Source: Eubacteriaceae bacterium (GTDB lineage Bacteria > Bacillota > Clostridia > Peptostreptococcales > Anaerovoracaceae). Taken from it: a stretch of 64,000 nt of DNA. A model generated the notes under the pieces. It saw nothing but the letters and a program-made list of their open reading frames with translations. It was not told where the DNA came from and ran no database searches. Position 1 is the stretch's first letter; each line of letters starts with the position of its first letter. The stretch spans positions 62,001 to 126,000 of the forward strand of contig CABIXY010000006.1 of NCBI GenBank assembly GCA_902362805.1, given 5' to 3'. Both the position numbers and the translations under genes were made by a program. Shown here one piece after another: positions 15,008 to 48,185 of the stretch.

Positions 15008-15442
15008 TTAGATCACATAGTTATTGCCAGGTGTTCCTGACTGGAGCAAATCCTCCAGGGTGATGCCGTCAAAGTAATCCTCTATCATCTTGTAGAAATT
15101 TTCCCACATGGATAGGGTCTTGCAGGATGCGATCCGAGAGCATTTATTGGGATTGTCCTCAAGACAGGCGACCGGCGCGAGGCTGCCTTCGGTCAGACGG
15201 AGGATGCTGCCGATGGTATACTGGTCAGGCTCACGAGTCAGCTTATAGCCGCCGCCTTTGCCTCGAAGCCCTTCTAGAAAATGAGCTTTAGTCAACGCGG
15301 AGATGATATTCTCTAAATATTTTTCTGAGATATCCTGTCTGGCGGCGATGTCTTTTAGGGGAATATATTTGCCCGTATTATTTTCGGCAAGGTCGATCAT
15401 AACTCGAATGGCATAACGACCTTTTGTTGATATTTTCATCAT
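15008..15442 (-). CDS. Rrf2 family regulator, CymR/IscR-like
   Basis: The ATG at 15442 is preceded by AGAGG at 8-nt spacing and gives MMKISTKGRYAIRVMIDLAE, the canonical Rrf2 N-terminus, so the longer reading is rejected. The product is 144 residues. The winged helix is followed by the signature LRGKGGGYKLTREPDQYTIG. Three cysteines (CLEDNPNKCSRIASC, spacing C-x7-C-x5-C) are positioned like the Fe-S ligands of IscR/RirA, so it may sense Fe-S or cysteine status. Its position directly upstream of metY-cysK, with a TAGGAAT palindrome between them, points to CymR-like control of sulfur assimilation. It has its own promoter region overlapping a hairpin repeat. Confidence 0.9.
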   Translation of the reverse strand: MMKISTKGRYAIRVMIDLAENNTGKYIPLKDIAARQDISEKYLENIISALTKAHFLEGLRGKGGGYKLTREPDQYTIGSILRLTEGSLAPVACLEDNPNKCSRIASCKTLSMWENFYKMIEDYFDGITLEDLLQSGTPGNNYVI

Positions 15443-15507
15443 ATTGTTTACCTCTTCTGACTTTTTTATGACATAGGAAATATCGTCTGAAGGACGAACT
15501 TTCGCAT

Positions 15508-15652
15508 GATGCAATGGTTCTACCTTCTTACGGCGACATCGTTAAAAGGTAGAACCATTATACCATGACGATACCTTTGAAATTAGAATCGAACGTCATG
15601 ATTCAATGGTTCTTTCCTTACGGCAACGCCGTTAAAAGGTAGAACCATTATA
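15508..15652 (-). repeat. Hairpin repeat array, 90-bp period, minus orientation
   Basis: Two P1-type hairpins flank one P2-type hairpin. P1 copies: AATGGTTCTACC (15513-15524) pairs with 15548-15559, and AATGGTTCT (15605-15613) pairs with 15641-15649, each enclosing a small CGGC/GCCG-type stem. P2: CATGACG (15564-15570) pairs with CGTCATG (15594-15600). Read on the minus strand, each P1 begins with TATAATGG. The period is 90 bp (TATAATGG at 15651 and 15561). The same unit recurs in inverted orientation at 16063-16290 and once at 44578-44692, with different stem sequences but conserved loops. Confidence 0.85.
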
Positions 15653-15729
15653 CTACTAGTTTAGTAGGGAAACAATGGGCATAATGCTTGTTACGGAAAT
15701 TCGTTGGAGCCCAATGATGTGTTTGCAAT

Positions 15730-15986
15730 AGTCCGCAGACGATATGCTGCTCAGAAAATGTTCTGAACTTTTTTTGGGACGAACTCGGCTGCGGACTGTT
15801 TAGATCCTGCAAGCAGGTAATGCAGTCCGCAAATGGTAGAGTTTTTCAAAAAAGCACAGTACATTTATTTTAGCTGGGCTGATTGTGGACTACATAGAAC
15901 CATTTCAGGGACAGAATAGTCCGCAGATGGGATAGGATGTAGAAAATGTTGCAGACATTTTTTTTAGATGCGTCAGTTGCGGACTG
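15730..15986. repeat. Diverged copies of the AGTCCGC/GCGGACT palindromic repeat
   Basis: Several AGTCCGCA and TGCGGACT inverted half-sites occur here (15730, 15794, 15820, 15929, 15979), with GAAAATGTT and runs of T between them. The order of elements matches the 93/94-bp units tandemly repeated at 47319-48185 but is much diverged. No coding potential was seen. The stretch 15653-16062 between the two hairpin arrays has no other gene. Confidence 0.6.
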
Positions 15987-16062
15987 AAGAGGCCGCAAAC
16001 CTCATGACAATTGAAAGTCTATTACTAACTAAGAACGATTTGCTCCAAGATATAGATTGTGT

Positions 16063-16290
16063 TATAATGATTCCGCAATCTTACGGCGCTGCCGAAAGGA
16101 AGGAATCATTGAAACATGACGCTCGATTCTATTTTTTAAGGAAGCGTCGTGTTATAATGAACGCGACTATTTTACAGCGTTGCTGCAAGGAAGCGTTCAT
16201 TGCATTGCAGACTACGATTATTTTCAAAAGGATGTCTGCAATATAATGATTCCGCAATCCTGCGATTTCGTCGCAAGGAAGATTCTAAAG
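16063..16290 (+). repeat. Hairpin repeat array, 90-bp period, plus orientation
   Basis: Five alternating hairpins. P1: AATGATTCC (16066-16074) with GGAATCATT (16102-16110), and AATGAACGC (16156-16164) with GCGTTCATT (16193-16201). P2: CATGACG (16115-16121) with 16145-16151, and TTGCAGAC (16205-16212) with GTCTGCAA (16234-16241). A third P1 from 16245 has lost its 3' arm. TATAATG opens every P1 (16063, 16153, 16242; period 89-90 bp). Inner stems also covary (CGGC/GCCG, CAGC/GCTG, GCGA/TCGC). Each unit keeps AAGGA near the 3' arm. It ends about 70 bp before the dynamin-like gene and may act as its leader or promoter. Confidence 0.85.
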
Positions 16291-16357
16291 AATAGTTATG
16301 CCACCCAGGGGATCTGGGCAGTGGGCATATGACATCATCCAGAGCAGGAGAGAATAA

Positions 16358-17590
16358 ATGAACAACAATGTATTAGAACAAGGAAAGAAAACATACCAGC
16401 TTCTTTCGGGGGATGAAGCTTGCTGTGGGCAGGCGGATCATGTGAAGACGCTGATTGATAAATTGGAAAATAGAGATATCACGGTATCTATTATCGGGCA
16501 ATTTAAGCGGGGCAAGAGCACCTTGGCCAATGCGATTTTGGAGGATTGTGTCCTACCCGTGGGCATTGTGCCGATTACATCGGCCGTGACGAAGGTGGTT
16601 TATGGTAAGAGAGCTGCCGAGGTTCACTACCAGAATGGCGTAGTGGAACCAGTTGAATTTGCGCGGCTGTCAGAATTCATCAGTGAGCAGGAGAATATGG
16701 GAAACAAGCTGGGCGTGGAATCCGTCATCCTCCACACACCATCAAAATTTCTGAAGAATGGACTGACTTTTGTCGATACACCGGGTGTCGGTTCGTTCCA
16801 TAAGAACAATACAGAAACGGCATATCACTACATGAAGGAAAGTGATGCGGTGATTTTTCTGCTGTCCGTGGACAGCCCGATTAACCAGATTGAAATTGAC
16901 TTTTTACATAATACCAAGGAGTTTGCCGGAAAGTTTTATTTTGCTGTCAACAAGGCAGATATCGTGGATGACAATGATCTGTCTGCTTACATGGACTATT
17001 GCGAAAAGCTGCTGTGCCAGATGATGGATATGAATGAGATTGCTATGTTTCCCGTCAGCGCCAAAACCGGCCGCGGCGTAGAGGAATTGAAAAAGGCCAT
17101 CGTTCACGACTGCAAGAAATCTGCCAGAGAAATTCTGGAGGAGTCCACAGAAAAGAAATTGAAAGATGTCATCACCAGCGCTTTGACGCAGCTGAACTTT
17201 TATTGGAAAGCGATGAACATGGAATACAAGGAGCTTGATGAGCGCTTTGCTGCTATAGCAAAGACTATAGAGGACATCAAAACAAAGGCCGCTGGCTGCG
17301 AGGCCGGGTTTGAGATCCATCTCAACGAGATGAAGTTGCAACTGTCAGAGAAAGTCCTGGAACTCTTCGGTATGGAATACCATTATGAGATTACCCAGCT
17401 TTCGGCAGGGTTGATTTCCATGGACAAAGAAGAATTCCTGAGACAAGTGGAACTTCTTTGCCAGAACCTCACCGATACGCTGAATCGCATTCTGCTTTAT
17501 CGGGAGGAAAATGCCTATACTGTGGTGAGAAGAATCAACAACATCAATAAGTTGTCCAGACAGCTGAGAAAAATCAGAAACGAATTATAA
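16358..17590 (+). CDS. Dynamin-like GTPase
   Basis: 410 residues. The N-terminal GTPase domain shows G1 (GQFKRGKSTLANAI, near residue 50), G2 (PITSAVTKVVYG), G3 (TFVDTPGVGSFHKNN) and G4 (FAVNKADIVD); from about residue 250 the protein is alpha-helical and probably forms the dynamin-type neck. Bacterial dynamin-like proteins bind or remodel membranes and often occur as pairs of longer proteins; this one is single and short, with no obvious C-terminal transmembrane paddle. The ATG follows GCAGGAGAG. Just upstream lie a TATGCC/GGGCATA hairpin (about 16298-16330) and a hairpin repeat array. A terminator follows. The cellular role is unknown. Confidence 0.85.
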   Translation: MNNNVLEQGKKTYQLLSGDEACCGQADHVKTLIDKLENRDITVSIIGQFKRGKSTLANAILEDCVLPVGIVPITSAVTKVVYGKRAAEVHYQNGVVEPVEFARLSEFISEQENMGNKLGVESVILHTPSKFLKNGLTFVDTPGVGSFHKNNTETAYHYMKESDAVIFLLSVDSPINQIEIDFLHNTKEFAGKFYFAVNKADIVDDNDLSAYMDYCEKLLCQMMDMNEIAMFPVSAKTGRGVEELKKAIVHDCKKSAREILEESTEKKLKDVITSALTQLNFYWKAMNMEYKELDERFAAIAKTIEDIKTKAAGCEAGFEIHLNEMKLQLSEKVLELFGMEYHYEITQLSAGLISMDKEEFLRQVELLCQNLTDTLNRILLYREENAYTVVRRINNINKLSRQLRKIRNEL

Positions 17591-17912: not shown

Positions 17913-18194
17913 ATGAGTCAAAAATACAAAAAAGTATTGATTATGATTTTGGCAATGATAATGGTAATCGCTGTATAGGGATGTTGGGTTTACAGCTTTG
18001 ATGAAAACAAGATATTCAGGGCGGAAAAAGAGGGAAACAAGCTGCATGCTTATGAGGATGGCAAAGTGATCGGCACCTTTGAATATTCTTTCAACAAAAT
18101 CCTTTGGATCCACTATGATGAGAAATACACAGCGAATTGGAGAGGAAAGGAATTAGATTTGACGAGGGTTATGCAGGGGTTTGTCTTTCCTTAG
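17913..18194 (+). pseudogene. Small lipoprotein-like gene interrupted by an in-frame TAG
   Basis: The ATG at 17913 has an excellent ATAGGAGG ribosome site. The frame encodes MSQKYKKVLIMILAMIMVIA followed by V, then TAG at 17976-17978, then GCWVYSFDENKIFRAEKEG and onward to a TAG at 18192-18194 (93 codons in all). Reading through the amber codon would restore a signal peptide with a lipobox-like cysteine (V-x-G-C), so the intact protein was probably a lipoprotein of about 90 residues. A recent nonsense mutation is the simplest reading, because the downstream part is otherwise undamaged. It lies under the ECF-type promoter at 17833. Function unknown. Confidence 0.7.
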
Positions 18195-28190: not shown

Positions 28191-28883
28191 TTAAATTTTA
28201 CCACCATCTGTGGAAATAGTCACTACCTGAAGGACAAGTTTTTTTCCGCTTGCATCGACGGCGCGTCTGACGGCCATTTCCAGACCGCCGCAGCAAGGCA
28301 CCTCCATGCGCGTTACCGTGACTGAGCGGATGTCATTCTGCCGGAAGATCTCTGCTAACTTCTCGGTGTAGTCCACATCGTCTAGTTTTGGACAGCCGAT
28401 CAAAGTGACCCGCCCTGCGATAAAATCTTGGTGAAAGGCGGCATAAGCGTAAGCCGTGCAGTCTGCTGCGATGAGAAGGTCTGCTCCGTCAAAATATCCG
28501 GCCCTGACTGGTGCCAATTTGATCTGTACCGGCCAGTTGGCCAGCTGTGACGGTATTTCCTGACTGGCGGCTTGAGCAGCCTGCGGATGCAGAGCTTTGG
28601 CTGCTGCACCGGGACAGCTGCAGGCGCGCTCTTCTGCCAATGCCCTCGCTGCCATGTTGGCTTTGACGGCAGCTTCGTCGTAGGCGGCAGCTTCTCTTTC
28701 TACAAAAGTGATGGCATCAGTGGGGCAGGTTGGCAGACAGTCACCGAGGCCGTCGCAGTAGTCGTCCCGCAGCAGCGTTGCTTTACCGTTCAACATGCCG
28801 ATGGCACCCTCGTGACAGGCCGCGGCACATGCGCCGCAGCCATTGCATTTCTCTTCGTCTATGTGTATTATTCTTCTAATCAT
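28191..28883 (-). CDS. Two-cluster ferredoxin-domain protein
   Basis: 230 residues. The N-terminal 2x[4Fe-4S] ferredoxin domain shows CNGCGACAAACHEGA and CDGLGDCLPTCPTDA, the second with a slightly unusual first spacing. The C-terminal part (about 105-230) contains IAADCTAYAYAAFH, LIGCPKLDD and MEVPCCGGLEMAVRRAV, a conserved cysteine-bearing domain found with such ferredoxins in anaerobes. It probably transfers electrons or senses redox state. It is divergent from a Crp/Fnr regulator, the arrangement seen for Hcp/nitrosative-stress ferredoxin genes in Clostridia; that link is inference. No good ribosome site other than AGAGGTAAG is visible. Confidence 0.85.
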   Translation of the reverse strand: MIRRIIHIDEEKCNGCGACAAACHEGAIGMLNGKATLLRDDYCDGLGDCLPTCPTDAITFVEREAAAYDEAAVKANMAARALAEERACSCPGAAAKALHPQAAQAASQEIPSQLANWPVQIKLAPVRAGYFDGADLLIAADCTAYAYAAFHQDFIAGRVTLIGCPKLDDVDYTEKLAEIFRQNDIRSVTVTRMEVPCCGGLEMAVRRAVDASGKKLVLQVVTISTDGGKI

Positions 28884-34701: not shown

Positions 34702-36633
34702 TTATTTAATCGTTACTTTTTTGCTGACCGTCTTGCCGTATACCTTTTCACCAGTTACATAGGTGTAAGGCCTTACGCTGACAGTATATTTTCCTTTGGC
34801 AAGTTTCTTGCTGGTAAAGGTTTTACCAGGTTTTGATAAGGAAGATACGATCTTGCCTTTAGAGTTTGTCACCTTATAGTAAAATCCATAAGCTTTGCTG
34901 TTGCCGCTGATCTTAGCGGTAATTTTCTTAGTCTTGGCGGAAGCTTTTGCAGAAGTGAGCTTCGTCGTGCGCGCGAGGGCAGCTTTGTATTCTTTGATAG
35001 GCGCTTTGTCTGCTGCAGTAAGCACCTTGATCCTGCCTTCGGTCTTCGCATATTGCTGACCGATGGTTCCGCCCAGCTTCTCGATGTATTTCTGAATGAC
35101 CTCTGTGTCAACCAGCGACTCCTTAGTGACTTCCTTGCAGCCGTCGAACATGGTATAGCCGTCACCCTGCTGGGTCAGAATGTAAGTTGTCGATGCGACA
35201 GTATAAGTCTTTTTCGGATCGATTGGCACACCGTTTACCTTGACATTGACCACTCTTCTTGCACCGGCAACTTTGACGAACATTTCGTTTTTATCAGTTT
35301 CTACGGTAGACGGAACGGTGGTGTCAATTTCGTAGGTGATACCGGATACCTGCAGAAATCCACCGACCTCTCCCGGCGTATTTCTTGCGCCCAGTTCCAA
35401 AGCGTCGAGAACCTGCTGTCCGGTCGCTTCGATGACGCCGTACATGTTGCCCCAAGGATGGAGTGCGATGAGATCGCCGTAGGTTACGTCGCCTGCCTTG
35501 ATATCGGCACGGACACCGCCGCCCTGGATGATGCCGATATCTGCACCTCCGATAATGCGGTAAGCGTCAGCGCAGAAGTTACCCATGTTGGTTTCCTGAT
35601 TTCTGACAGCGCGTTTGCCTTCGGCATCCAGCGTGGTCAAGAGGACTTCAGAAGTACCCACTTTTTTGGAGGAGACTGCCTCGATTTTGTCATTGATCTC
35701 TTTGATTAAAGCTGCGGTCTTTTCATCCTTTGTCGCATAGTCGGTGACTAGGCTGGTGGAAATCTTTCCATCCGCTGTAATGATCAATTCACCAATAGCG
35801 GCCAGCTTTGTTCCGGCCTGAGATAGAGTAACATCTTTGCCTGCTTTGTCTTTTACGGCTTCACTGGCTACCGTGCTGTGGGAGTGACCGTCGATAAAAG
35901 CGTTTAAGCCAGTGGTGTTGGCGATGACTTCTCTGGATGTCCATGGGCTGCTCTGCTCGTCGATTCCCATGTGTCCGAGAGCGATGATATAGTCAGCGCC
36001 TTCTGCCTTTGCAGCGTCGATGGCTTTCTGAACAGCTGCATAGAGTTTCTTGCCTGTCTTATCATTACAGAAGTCGTAGATATAGTTGCCTTTTTCGTCC
36101 TGGAAGAAAGCCGGCGTAGATTTGGTGATGGATTCCGGTGTGCTGATGCCGACAAATGCGACCTTTTTGCCGCCGATTTCTTTGATGACATACGGATCAA
36201 AGACGGTCTTATCTGCTTTGGTATCCATGAAGTTGGAACTGATATATTTAGCGTTGGATTTTTTTGTCAGCTCCAAAAATTGCTCCATGCCGAAGTCGAA
36301 CTCATGATTTCCCGGCACTGCCACGTCGTAGCCGACCTGGTTCATGATGTCGACAATGTAGTCACCCTTGGAAAGAGCGCCTGCCAGGTCTCCCTGGATG
36401 GCATCGCCTGCGTCAACGAGGACGACATTCTTCGTTTCTTTCAGCTTGTCTGCTTTGTAGGCGGCAAGACCGGCATAACCGATACTGTCGTCGATTCCGC
36501 AGTGGACGTCGTTGGTATAGAGCACCACGATGTCGTCTGATTTTGCGTTTGCGGCAAAGACCATGGATGGCATCATCGCAACAACCAGGCAGACAGCCAG
36601 CAAAATCGTTAATAATCTCTTGTTCTTTCGCAT
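34702..36633 (-). CDS. Secreted 5'-nucleotidase / 2',3'-cyclic-nucleotide phosphodiesterase
   Basis: 643 residues. A signal peptide (1-27, LLTILLAVCLVVAMMPSMVF) is followed by a calcineurin-like metallophosphatase domain (about 33-290; VVLYTNDVHCGIDD, DAGDAIQGD, GNHEFDFGME, IALGHMGIDEQSS, GHSHSTVA), a 5'-nucleotidase C-terminal substrate domain (about 325-520; TNMGNFCADAYRIIGGADIG, GGGVRADIKAGDVTYGD), and a basic Fn3-like module (about 555-643). It would degrade extracellular nucleotides to nucleosides and phosphate. The missing wall anchor and the basic module suggest binding to wall polymers. The ATG has AAGGAGG, which directly abuts the last of five tandem leader repeats. Confidence 0.93.
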   Translation of the reverse strand: MRKNKRLLTILLAVCLVVAMMPSMVFAANAKSDDIVVLYTNDVHCGIDDSIGYAGLAAYKADKLKETKNVVLVDAGDAIQGDLAGALSKGDYIVDIMNQVGYDVAVPGNHEFDFGMEQFLELTKKSNAKYISSNFMDTKADKTVFDPYVIKEIGGKKVAFVGISTPESITKSTPAFFQDEKGNYIYDFCNDKTGKKLYAAVQKAIDAAKAEGADYIIALGHMGIDEQSSPWTSREVIANTTGLNAFIDGHSHSTVASEAVKDKAGKDVTLSQAGTKLAAIGELIITADGKISTSLVTDYATKDEKTAALIKEINDKIEAVSSKKVGTSEVLLTTLDAEGKRAVRNQETNMGNFCADAYRIIGGADIGIIQGGGVRADIKAGDVTYGDLIALHPWGNMYGVIEATGQQVLDALELGARNTPGEVGGFLQVSGITYEIDTTVPSTVETDKNEMFVKVAGARRVVNVKVNGVPIDPKKTYTVASTTYILTQQGDGYTMFDGCKEVTKESLVDTEVIQKYIEKLGGTIGQQYAKTEGRIKVLTAADKAPIKEYKAALARTTKLTSAKASAKTKKITAKISGNSKAYGFYYKVTNSKGKIVSSLSKPGKTFTSKKLAKGKYTVSVRPYTYVTGEKVYGKTVSKKVTIK

Positions 36634-36646
36634 AATTCGCCTCCTT

Positions 36647-37097
36647 AATGGTACTGGTCCCGATTTACGGAGAAAACCGCAGGACAGACCTTATGCTTTA
36701 GCGCCCCGCGAACAAAGAGAGCGGAATGGCGCTAGTCGTATAATGGTACTGGTCCCGATTTACGGAGAAAACCGCAGGACAGACCTTATGCTTTAGCGCC
36801 CCGCGAACAAAGAGAGCGGAATGGCGCTAGTCGTATAATGGTACTGGTCCCGATTTACGGAGTAAATCGCAGGACAGACCTTATGCAACCACCCTCCAAG
36901 AGAACGAGCCGATGGGCGAAGTTCGATTGGAAAAGGGCTGACTGCAAATGGTACTGGTCCCGATTTACGGAGTAAATCGCAGGACAGACCTTATGCAACC
37001 ACCCTCCAAGAGAACGAGCCGACGGGCGAAGTTCGATTGGAAAAGGGCTGACTGCAAATGGTACTGGTCCCGATTTACGGAGTAAATCGCAGGACAG
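36647..37097 (-). repeat. Five tandem leader repeats upstream of the 5'-nucleotidase gene
   Basis: A 46-bp core starting AATGGTACTGGTCCCG recurs at 36647, 36742, 36837, 36947 and 37057. The first two gaps contain one identical filler (unit 95 bp) and the next two contain another (unit 110 bp). The core holds an inverted repeat, CGATTTAC/GTAAATCG, nested in GGTCC/GGAC, so each copy can fold as a hairpin. Copies 1-2 differ from 3-5 in the hairpin arm (GAGAAAACCG against GAGTAAATCG). On the minus strand the last core ends 3 nt before the nucleotidase AAGGAGG site. Identical fillers exclude a CRISPR array. Confidence 0.88.
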
Positions 37098-37121
37098 ACC
37101 TTATTAAAGAAATAAGTGGTT

Positions 37122-44525: not shown

Positions 44526-44577
44526 ATCTATATTTTGAAAATATCAGCAATTTCGTTGAAAAAACATGAAAAATTGT

Positions 44578-44692
44578 ATATAATAGTTCCGTAATCCTAA
44601 ACGACGTTACCATGACGTGGGCATTATAGTAGAAAGTGTTCATTGAATCATGACATTCGATTCTGAATTCAGAGGTAAGTCATGGTATAATG
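44578..44692 (+). repeat. Degenerate single copy of the 90-bp hairpin repeat
   Basis: TATAATAGTTCCGTAATCC at 44579 and GTGTTCATTGAATCATGAC near 44637 mark a damaged P1 element, followed by an intact P2 hairpin: CATGAC (44649-44654) with GTCATG (44679-44684). Its loop ATTCGATTCTGAATTCAGAG closely matches the P2 loops at 15571-15593 (minus) and 16122-16144. GTATAATG follows immediately at 44685, as in the other arrays, and could be a minus-10 element for the MreB-like gene starting at 44760. Confidence 0.75.
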
Positions 44693-44759
44693 TATCAAAA
44701 AATGGCAATGCTATATATAATTGAGAATATATTATTTTTTAGAGAAAAGGAGTATGGAA

Positions 44760-45776
44760 ATGGCAAGTGAAGTAGGAATTGACTTAGGGACAGCCAATGT
44801 CTTAGTATATATAAAAAACAAGGGCATAGTACTGAACGAGCCGTCAGTAGTGGCAATTAACAAAGACACGGATGATATTCTCGCTGTGGGTGAAGAAGCA
44901 AGACAGATGCTGGGAAGAACACCTGCTAATATCATCGCCGTGCGTCCACTTCGTGACGGTGTGATTTCAGATTATGATATTACTGAGAGGATGCTGAAGT
45001 ATTTTATCAAAAAGACATGCGGAAGCGGCAGATTCTTTAAACCGAAAATCATGGTTTGTGTCCCGAGCGGAGTGACTGAGGTTGAGAAAAGAGCTGTCAG
45101 GGAAGCGGCAACACAAGCAGGAGGAAAAGACGTTTATCTGATGGAAGAACCAGTTGCAGCAGCGATCGGTGCTGGAATTGATATTGCCCAGCCGGATGGT
45201 GTCATGGTTATCGACATCGGAGGCGGAACCACAGATATCGCTGTCATTTCCCTTGGCGGTATTGTTGCAAGTACATCCGTAAAGATGGCCGGAGATAAAT
45301 TCGATGATTCCATCATTAAATATATGAGAAAAGTACACAAGCTGTATATCGGTGAAAGAACTGGCGAAGAAATCAAGAAAACGATTGGTACTGCATATCC
45401 AAGAGAAGAAAACATGGTCATGGAATGCCGGGGCAGAGATTTAGTTACGGGGCTTCCAAAGACCGTGGAGGTCAGTTCCGAGGAAATCATGGAAGCGCTG
45501 GAAGAACCACTTCACACTATTTGTGAAGCAGCCCATAGCGTTCTTGAACAAACCCCGCCTGAACTGGCAGCGGATATCAGTAATTCTGGTATTGTCATCA
45601 CCGGCGGAGGTGCATTGCTTTACGGCATCGATAGAAGGATTCAGGATAGGACAGGCATCCAGGTGAGAATCGCTGATGACCCGACGTCTTGTGTAGCAAT
45701 CGGTACAGGAAAGGCGCTCAATGAGTTAGAGTCGTTGGAAAGCAATTCACTGAATAGAAGAGCACCTTATTTATAA
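44760..45776 (+). CDS. MreB/Mbl-like actin homolog
   Basis: 338 residues from ATG 44760 (AAGGAG at 7 nt; the ATG two codons earlier is too close). Actin-fold motifs are phosphate-1 (EVGIDLGTANVLVYIKNKGI), the hinge region (VREAATQAGGKDVYLMEEPV), phosphate-2 (VMVIDIGGGTTDIAVISLGG) and the adenosine motif (GIVITGGGALLYGIDRRIQD). MreB paralogs organise lateral cell-wall synthesis and cell shape. No mreC, mreD or rod genes follow, so it is a solitary Mbl-type copy, as often seen in Firmicutes. A good terminator lies downstream. Confidence 0.94.
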   Translation: MASEVGIDLGTANVLVYIKNKGIVLNEPSVVAINKDTDDILAVGEEARQMLGRTPANIIAVRPLRDGVISDYDITERMLKYFIKKTCGSGRFFKPKIMVCVPSGVTEVEKRAVREAATQAGGKDVYLMEEPVAAAIGAGIDIAQPDGVMVIDIGGGTTDIAVISLGGIVASTSVKMAGDKFDDSIIKYMRKVHKLYIGERTGEEIKKTIGTAYPREENMVMECRGRDLVTGLPKTVEVSSEEIMEALEEPLHTICEAAHSVLEQTPPELAADISNSGIVITGGGALLYGIDRRIQDRTGIQVRIADDPTSCVAIGTGKALNELESLESNSLNRRAPYL

Positions 45777-47318: not shown

Positions 47319-48185
47319 CGATCGCGGACTCTTAGAGGGGCAAAATAGGCCGTTGCAGTCCGCAGCCGAGCGCGCCAGAAAAAAAGTGCGGGACATTTTT
47401 TGAGAACCTAGTCGATTGCGGACTGTCAGAAGCGCAAAACGGGCCGTTGCAGTCCGCAGCCGAGCGCGCCAGAAAAAAAGTGCGGGACATTCTTGAGAAC
47501 CTAGTCGATTGCGGACTGTCAGAACCGCAAAACAGGCCGTTGTAGTCCGCAGCCGAGCGCGCCAGAAAAAAAGTGCGGGACATTTCTTGAGAACGTAGTC
47601 GATTGCGGACTGTCAGAACCGCAAAACAGGCCGTTGCAGTCCGCAGCCGAGCGCGCCAGAAAAAAAGTGCGGGACATTTCTTGAGAACCCGGCCGATTGC
47701 GGACTCTTAGAGAGGTAAAACGGGCCGTTGCAGTCCGCAGCCGAGCGCGCCAGAAAAAAAGTGCGGGACATTTTTTGCGAACCCGGTCAATTGCGGACTG
47801 TCAGAACCGCAAAACAGGCCGTTGCAGTCCGCAGCCGAGCGCGCCAGAAAAAAAGTGCGGGACATTCTTGAGAACCTAGTCGATTGCGGACTGTCAGAAG
47901 CGCAAAACGGGCCGTTGCAGTCCGCAGCCGAGCGCGCCAGAAAAAAAGTGCGGGACATTCTTGAGAACCTAGTCGATTGCGGACTGTCAGAACCGCAAAA
48001 CAGGCCGTTGTAGTCCGCAGCCGAGCGCGCCAGAAAAAAAGTGCGGGACATTTCTTGAGAACGTAGTCGATTGCGGACTGTCAGAACCGCAAAACAGGCC
48101 GTTGCAGTCCGCAGCCGAGCGCGCCAGAAAAAAAGTGCGGGACATTTCTTGAGAACCCGGTCAATTGCGGACTATCAGAACCGCG
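47319..48185. repeat. Tandem array of 93/94-bp palindromic repeats
   Basis: Nine full units and one partial unit start at 47319, 47413, 47506, 47600, 47694, 47788, 47881, 47974, 48068 and 48162 (periods 93 or 94 bp). Each contains TGCGGACT and AGTCCGCA as an inverted pair around a 26-nt loop, then GCCGAGCGCGCCAGAAAAAA and GTGCGGGACAT. Units 47413-47693 and 47881-48161 share the same variant pattern (for example GTTGTAGTCC at 47539 and 48007), showing a later 468-bp five-unit duplication. Repeats are nearly identical. No gene lies in 47179-48330. Antisense frames repeating MSRTFFLARSAAD look accidental. Confidence 0.92.

Follow-up and report, generated by a model that had tools for sequence, protein, structure and literature searches.

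A tandem two-hairpin repeat at the -10 boxes of promoters in a group of Clostridia

Repeat arrays in the window

The window analyzed here is the whole 64,000-nucleotide stretch of contig CABIXY010000006.1 from a Eubacteriaceae bacterium. It carries three arrays of a hairpin repeat, and the genes downstream of these arrays were assigned by Pfam to an Rrf2 regulator, a dynamin-type GTPase, and MreB. A sequence-only reading had described two arrays and a degenerate third copy, and all three were recovered where it had located them. The units are approximately 90 bp long, are arranged head-to-tail, and read, from 5' to 3', TATAATG, a first hairpin (P1), a second hairpin (P2), and CATGn, followed by the TATAAT of the next unit. 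P1 is a 9-bp stem around a small hairpin (CGGCGTTGCCG and variants), CATTG lies between P1 and P2, and CATGn forms the right end in most units, with the next TATAATG directly after it. The same reading had stated that every P1 starts with TATAATG directly after P2. This holds inside an array, but in all three cases a -35-like hexamer and a 17-bp spacer precede the first TATAAT: TTGTTT-17-TATAAT (Rrf2), TTGCTC-17-TATAAT (dynamin), and TTGAAA-17-TATAAT (mreB). In the following list, G001 denotes the genome with the most matches, to which contigs of Emergencia timonensis SN18 belong, CM stands for covariance model, and ORF for open reading frame; where no other basis is given, the feature was identified from the sequence.

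15008..15514, minus strand: Rrf2-family regulator ORF (PF02082, E=8.9e-36); its listed start is a TTG inside the repeat, and the real start is likely the ATG at 15442
15512..15562, minus strand: terminal P1 (TATAATGG...CCATTG), between the last -10 hexamer and the Rrf2 leader; the longer piece 15471-15562 scored 33.3 bits
15563..15652, minus strand: unit 1 (P1 and P2) of the array in the Rrf2-family regulator gene promoter (CM 102.6 bits, and folding)
15647..15652, minus strand: first TATAAT (-10) of the Rrf2 array, with the same flank in the G001 ortholog
15670-15675, minus strand: TTGTTT, -35-like hexamer of the Rrf2 array, spacer 17
16040..16045, plus strand: TTGCTC, -35-like hexamer 17 bp 5' of the first TATAAT of the plus-strand array (G001 ortholog, TTGCCC-17-TATAAT)
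16063..16152, plus strand: unit 1 (P1 and P2) of the array in the dynamin-type GTPase gene promoter (CM 97.9 bits)
16153..16241, plus strand: unit 2 (P1 and P2) of the same array (CM 81.2 bits)
16242..16292, plus strand: last TATAAT and a P1 remnant merging into the dynamin-gene leader
16358..17590, plus strand: Dynamin_N GTPase gene downstream of the array (PF00350, E=6.8e-29)
28195..28200, minus strand: repeat-free -10-like TAAAAT of the pfkB gene (PfkB, PF00294); by sequence comparison, the G001 ortholog has four units exactly there
44556..44584, plus strand: mreB promoter, TTGAAA, 17-bp spacer, and TATAAT, the last being the first hexamer of the degenerate copy
44579..44685, plus strand: degenerate unit with a broken P1 and a paired P2 (CM 38.5 bits)
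44686-44691, plus strand: TATAAT after the degenerate unit
44721..45776, plus strand: MreB gene (PF06723, E=3.4e-147), with its ORF listed from a TTG and an ATG at 44754

Position at promoter -10 boxes

The repeat is real, widespread, and under structural constraint. Its copies lie at -10 boxes in dozens of promoters across a group of Clostridia, oriented with the gene and often in tandem. Two sets of units were assembled. The G001+window set contains 141 units in 69 arrays (137 units in 66 arrays from G001 and four in three from the window), and the family set, collected with a second covariance model, contains 120 units in 78 arrays from 77 loci. If an ORF of at least 60 amino acids with a start codon and a Shine-Dalgarno-like motif was found within 300 nt in the direction of the array, the array was counted as preceding a gene. 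This was the case for 61 of the 69 arrays in the G001+window set (median distance 66 nt), compared with 29 of 69 on the opposite side, and for 63 of 76 in the family set, compared with 31. Judged from the ORF starts, the G001 genes downstream of arrays presumably include pyrH, murA, pyk, mutS, murI, and lysC. Matches to TTGACA upstream of the first TATAAT were highest at a 17-bp spacer (mean 2.60 of 6, against 1.3-2.1 elsewhere; 65 arrays), and a peak at spacer 17 was also seen in the family set. Among arrays not directly preceded by a P2, TGn stands directly 5' of the first hexamer in 38 of 58 (G001+window), and the family figure is 51 of 69. Position 13, the expected transcript start, is an A in 100 of 117 and 77 of 113 units, respectively. 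The TATAAT hexamers of the repeat are likely to function in promoters. The sequence-only reading had noted the built-in TATAATG, which is present, and had missed its placement as a -10 box in host promoters and the exact insertion there.

Comparison of orthologous promoters with and without the repeat provides good support for a precise insertion at the -10 hexamer. At pfkB, whose -10 hexamer falls in the last codons of the preceding gene, the window is repeat-free (..GGTGG|TAAAATTTA..) and G001 is filled (..GGTGG[TATAATG..CATGG]x4|TATATTTA..). The mreB promoter contains the repeat in the window and in G001. Of the 11 genus genomes in which this promoter could be used (no usable one was found in G012 and G013), ten lack the repeat; in these ten, TTGAAA and TATAAT are 17 bp apart in nine and 16 bp apart in G011. 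When the pyrH promoters of 13 genomes were judged by eye and their hexamers counted, five were filled and eight repeat-free. The dynamin gene of G001 has a single -10 and a rudimentary P1 only, and the Rrf2 array is common to the window and G001 with different unit numbers. The pyk promoter was uninformative as a further repeat-free site, as the upstream layout differs in the relatives.

The hexamers at the two ends of an array are not equally conserved, although a hexamer duplicated at insertion would be expected to vary to the same extent in both places. In the 31 arrays that do not end in a P1 remnant, 19 have TATAAT as the first hexamer and not as the last, with the reverse in two (P=0.0002); the corresponding counts are 9 and 0 among 38 family arrays (P=0.004), and 9 and 1 among single-unit arrays of the G001+window set (P=0.02). 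Internal hexamers are exactly TATAAT in 68 of 72 cases, and in 38 of 42 in the family set. Given the greater variation of the hexamer that follows the array, the left TATAATG most likely belongs to the element, which would land just 5' of the native hexamer. The hexamer need not be a target duplicate, since the consensus is found more often in the upstream than in the downstream hexamer, and this asymmetry weakens the case for nTATAAT having been duplicated as a simple 7-bp unit. In 47 of 58 arrays (29.6 after shuffling), and in 44 of 69 family arrays (25.5), the last base of the unit recurs immediately 5' of the first hexamer (P<1e-4 in both sets), and positions -2 to -4 before the hexamer showed no significant match to the unit end. 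Pairing of the native base with the 5' closing base of P2 was considered as a guide (47 of 56, shuffled 36.5, P=0.0002; family 42 of 58, shuffled 37.3, P=0.06) and is not claimed.

Copy number and distribution

A P2 pattern search of genome contigs gave 12 matches, seven of them in the E. timonensis SN18 contigs; the other five (L004, L005, L007, L009, L010) are probably due to chance. E. timonensis is placed in the Anaerovoracaceae, Clostridia, by NCBI taxonomy. As blocks aligned between the window and G001 are mostly 75-92% identical, with two short blocks at 95%, the window appears to come from a relative of E. timonensis that is a different species. A simple P1 pattern occurs 108 times in G001, compared with 15 times for a reversed control. 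At E<=0.1, the covariance model gave 146 matches in G001 and 3 to 9 in each of G002, G004, G005, G010, and G012. Matches were present in 9 of 13 genus genomes, including one each in G003, G006, and G011 (E 0.004-0.055), which are probably chance. The repeat recurs across the genome, with further covariation, in support of the sequence-only reading.

The G001+window set retains 141 of 167 CM matches; the 26 left out are weak, truncated, opposite-strand, or terminal pieces, among them 15471-15562 and 15510-15601 of the window. The G001 regions were taken from matches, and the array counts cover only the regions that matches reached. Arrays of one, two, three, four, five, and six units number 28, 21, 12, 6, 1, and 1. 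The family set retains 120 of 127 matches, with one duplicate place and otherwise truncated, opposite-strand, or weak matches removed. At E<=1e-5, the second model matched at least 30 of 296 genomes of the family, some of which are genus genomes used to build the model, at least 25 of 393 of the order, 24 of these being among the family's 30, and at least 2 of 391 of the class (G001 and G496). Per-genome unit counts in these scans are lower bounds, at most the best 11-14 candidates per genome having been scored. The at least four matches in G496 have quite different arms (TATAATAAAACC..GGTTTTATTG) on an unchanged plan. Units range from 62 to 181 bp, mostly 77-101 bp, and the longest array has nine (G060). 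By eye, P2 has at least three designs in the family set, and the overall layout recurs.

In line with the sequence-only reading, no named family with such a design was found and no Rfam family matched: Rfam 15 at gathering score identified only a tRNA in the window, and a permissive scan of 15400-16400 gave six matches, all to snoRNA, microRNA, or lncRNA families and far below the cut-off. The literature search, which covered few subscription papers, yielded no account of a repeat of this kind from these bacteria and no element inserting at -10 boxes. Plasmids had no match to window 15500-16300, and viral contigs had none to one exact P2 pattern. On inspection, a coding function across units was rejected because lengths vary between 62 and 181 bp with no frame kept. 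Rho-independent terminators were rejected by eye, there being no T-run after P1 or P2.

Two further P1-like forms were seen. A long P1 whose inner loop has an extra multi-hairpin stretch (..AAGCTTGCTTGG..) is found at L104, L105, L108, and L091 of G001, L237 of G221, and L260 of G141, and this form from three genomes is perhaps an ancestral longer one. At G001:C9:1203124-1203338, outside the main set, two P1-like palindromes (TATAATGGAAGC..GCTTCCATTG) lie 171 bp apart.

Stem covariation

Both arrays fold more stably than dinucleotide shuffles (16055-16292, z = -4.4; 15490-15665 on the minus strand, z = -8.1), with 0 of 200 shuffles as stable. To examine covariation, 20 full units were aligned; as these were chosen by an exact TATAATG at both ends, the invariance of TATAATG in this set is a product of the selection of units. 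Two-sided changes were found at 15 of 23 pairs (10.4 in shuffles) and double changes in 69 cells (21.0 in shuffles), helix 1 had no one-sided changes, and sliding the partner by 1-3 columns abolished pairing. The number of further pair types, 24, was not above that of shuffles (26.2). When right arms were re-dealt among units, pairing at the five variable P1 pairs fell from 0.885 to 0.509 (131 units of the G001+window set), and P1 pairing in the family set fell from 0.943 to 0.573 (116 units). The covarying stems with conserved loops described in the sequence-only reading are therefore borne out. Chimeric P1 stems, with left and right arms of different types, were observed in the last units of L124 and L111 and in the terminal P1 of L087, which points to recombination within P1.

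Under selection on RNA, G-U pairs are expected to outnumber A-C mismatches. At the five variable P1 pairs, G-T and A-C cells number 5 and 14 in the G001+window set and 9 and 6 in the family set (together 14 and 20 of 1150 cells), and P2 of the G001+window set has 10 and 15. P2 of the family set has 63 and 6, which tells against a DNA-level view, though by eye many of these cells seem to lie beyond the shorter family stem. With no surplus of G-U over A-C, P1 does not point to an RNA role, and a DNA-level role, or correction by template switching, is favored over an RNA function.

Proposed mechanism and alternative explanations

In our judgment, the repeat is probably, if far from certainly, a non-autonomous DNA element of two hairpins that integrates at -10 boxes with the orientation of the gene and expands in tandem. 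Insertion would take place at the 5' edge of the -10 hexamer in sigma-A-type promoters (TGn^TATAAT), with the element contributing both of its ends, TATAATG on the left and CATGn on the right. The native -35 would then face a consensus TATAAT, and the native hexamer would gain an extended -10 (TGn). Transcription would be kept or improved, each copy would give the host gene a fresh promoter box, and the boxes are presumed to be working -10 boxes. Because insertion would keep or improve transcription, the repeat could persist in the promoters of essential genes. Units would subsequently multiply in tandem. This growth appears to be recent, as 18 of 71 pairs of adjacent G001 units are at least 97% identical. 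Movement would depend on a dedicated mechanism; a folded single strand might recombine, or a circular unit with the junction n|TATAAT.

Several observations weigh against this reading. Between units from different G001 arrays, best-match identities have a median of 0.85 and a maximum of 0.96, and sampled arrays from ten other genomes gave 0.85-0.96, so dispersal looks old. No mobilizing gene was found, PF01797 being the only enzyme searched for, and no larger autonomous copy was found, nor any site filled in one strain and free in another of the same species, for which no within-species data were available. The start-codon rule is crude and chose some wrong starts, such as the TTG inside the repeat for the Rrf2 gene of the window. 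The -35 signal is moderate, with four or more matches at spacer 17 in 11 of 58 and 13 of 69 filtered arrays, and spacers 12 and 24 reach nine arrays each in the family set. In family single-unit arrays alone the hexamer asymmetry is weak (5 versus 0, P=0.06), and the asymmetry as a whole could stem from later decay of a redundant last box. The right boundary is blurred, as 29 of 60 G001+window arrays with a recognizable last hexamer end in a P1 remnant.

The sequence-only reading had taken the covariation to speak against drift and to imply that an RNA or DNA structure is under selection. In that form the inference is not supported, given that P1 lacks a G-U excess and that template switching is a published mutational route which, as outlined in PMC8794818, keeps stems perfect. 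In this alternative, one arm is corrected from the other during replication, and the hairpins need no present function. The few block types among P1 arms (AACGC, GTTCC, ATTCC) fit such correction, as do the absence of one-sided changes in helix 1 of the 20 units and of a G-U excess in P1. Correction leaves unexplained why the unpaired hexamer, the P2 loop, and AAGG are also conserved, and 8 of 120 scored units, some of them chimeric, retain at least three non-Watson-Crick P1 pairs. It accounts for the stems and not for the promoter placement. Template switching may contribute to the stem covariation; as the full explanation of that covariation it has an appreciable chance, short of even, of being right.

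A more specific form of the insertion reading is a dedicated promoter-targeting system, in which a folded single strand or circle would integrate at the -10, possibly in the RNA polymerase bubble, helped by the base match before the hexamer. Each insertion would leave two usable -10 boxes and so provide a built-in safe haven. In the predicted fold, the junction is left with hardly any unpaired linker other than the TAT between the feet of P2 and P1. We hold this specific form to be rather unlikely.

An ordinary miniature inverted-repeat transposable element (MITE) of a DDE-type insertion sequence, or a repetitive extragenic palindrome or bacterial interspersed mosaic element (REP/BIME) moved by a Y1 transposase (RAYT), would also be small, dispersed, and hairpin-rich, with a short target match (n, or n and the hexamer). 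TATAATG-N5 and CATGn, the two ends of the unit, are not each other's reverse complement, however, and the repeat thus has no terminal inverted repeats of the kind a MITE would carry. The Y1 transposase (PF01797) is absent from G001 and from 5 of 14 other element-bearing genomes, being present in nine, and no unit was found at 15 loci around Y1 genes (no match to the second model at E<=1). A Y1 transposase, the one enzyme family searched for, is accordingly not supported as partner, and we regard this origin as unlikely.

An RNA leader, in which transcripts from upstream promoters fold P1 and P2 and regulate or stabilize the mRNA, would suit the strong folding, the location of arrays just upstream of genes, and the G-T excess in family P2. 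Against it stand the P1 counts of both sets, the P2 counts of the G001+window set, and the apparent origin of the family excess in pairs beyond the shorter stem. A transcript from the unit's own promoter would also miss the left P1 arm, no Rfam family matched, and the genes, as read from ORF starts, have no common function. We consider this explanation quite improbable. Least likely of all are operator arrays, in which a global regulator would bind P1 and P2 beside the -10 of its regulon: the fixed position and orientation and the conserved core motifs agree with this, but stem sequences vary yet stay complementary, the genes look like unrelated housekeeping genes from their ORF starts, and the mreB and pyrH promoters of close relatives lack the repeat.

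Relation to known repeats

Integron attC arrays consist of head-to-tail units whose stems vary in sequence with the structure kept, as do the arrays described here, which unlike them have no genes between the sites. Terminal inverted repeats and a TA target are features of Correia elements and set them apart from the present repeat, whose ends are not inverted repeats and which is gene-oriented, is sited at the -10 hexamer, and forms tandem arrays. Both are small dispersed repeats found just upstream of genes, and the available account of Correia repeat enclosed elements in Neisseria (PMC10969869) describes them as mostly so placed and as having functional sigma-70-like promoters, which are only predicted here. 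BOX elements of Streptococcus are likewise hairpin repeats of modular build, in which boxB forms tandem arrays of varying number, and they affect neighboring genes (PMC3049150). As described there, BOX has flanking boxA and boxC, and the available part of the source reports no -10 targeting, in contrast to the single unit type found here, in which each boundary is a -10 box. REP/BIMEs with RAYT share the high-copy intergenic hairpin modules; in BIMEs, according to the available text of PMC2817692, REPs are regularly spaced in alternating orientation, whereas the present units are head-to-tail and G001 has no Y1 transposase.

On the best reading, the repeat joins the small mobile repeats that bear promoters, and no described family was found to behave likewise. 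If this is correct, a repeat spreads by landing exactly on a core promoter box without breaking it, more than 60 promoters of one genome have been altered, those of the housekeeping genes mreB and pyrH included, and single promoters have been turned into arrays of up to nine units. It would thereby become possible to test how -10 boxes are located by mobile DNA and by what route promoters multiply. The stems also caution against reading strong covariation as proof of a functional RNA when G-U intermediates are lacking.

Other repeats in the window

Between the Rrf2 and dynamin arrays, at 15727-15986, there are motifs similar to AGTCCGCAG/CTGCGGACT, and approximately nine 94-bp tandem units with AGTCCGCAG/CTGCGGACT motifs are located at 47319-48184. 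Another tandem array, of 95- and 110-bp hairpin units with TATAATG at some junctions, occupies 36619-37104 between two minus-strand genes, upstream of a 5'-nucleotidase-like gene from which its TATAAT faces away. The 217 bp at 17977-18193 are 95% identical to G001, where the adjoining block is approximately 80% identical and a second copy is present at 76%, and are a candidate conserved non-coding element.
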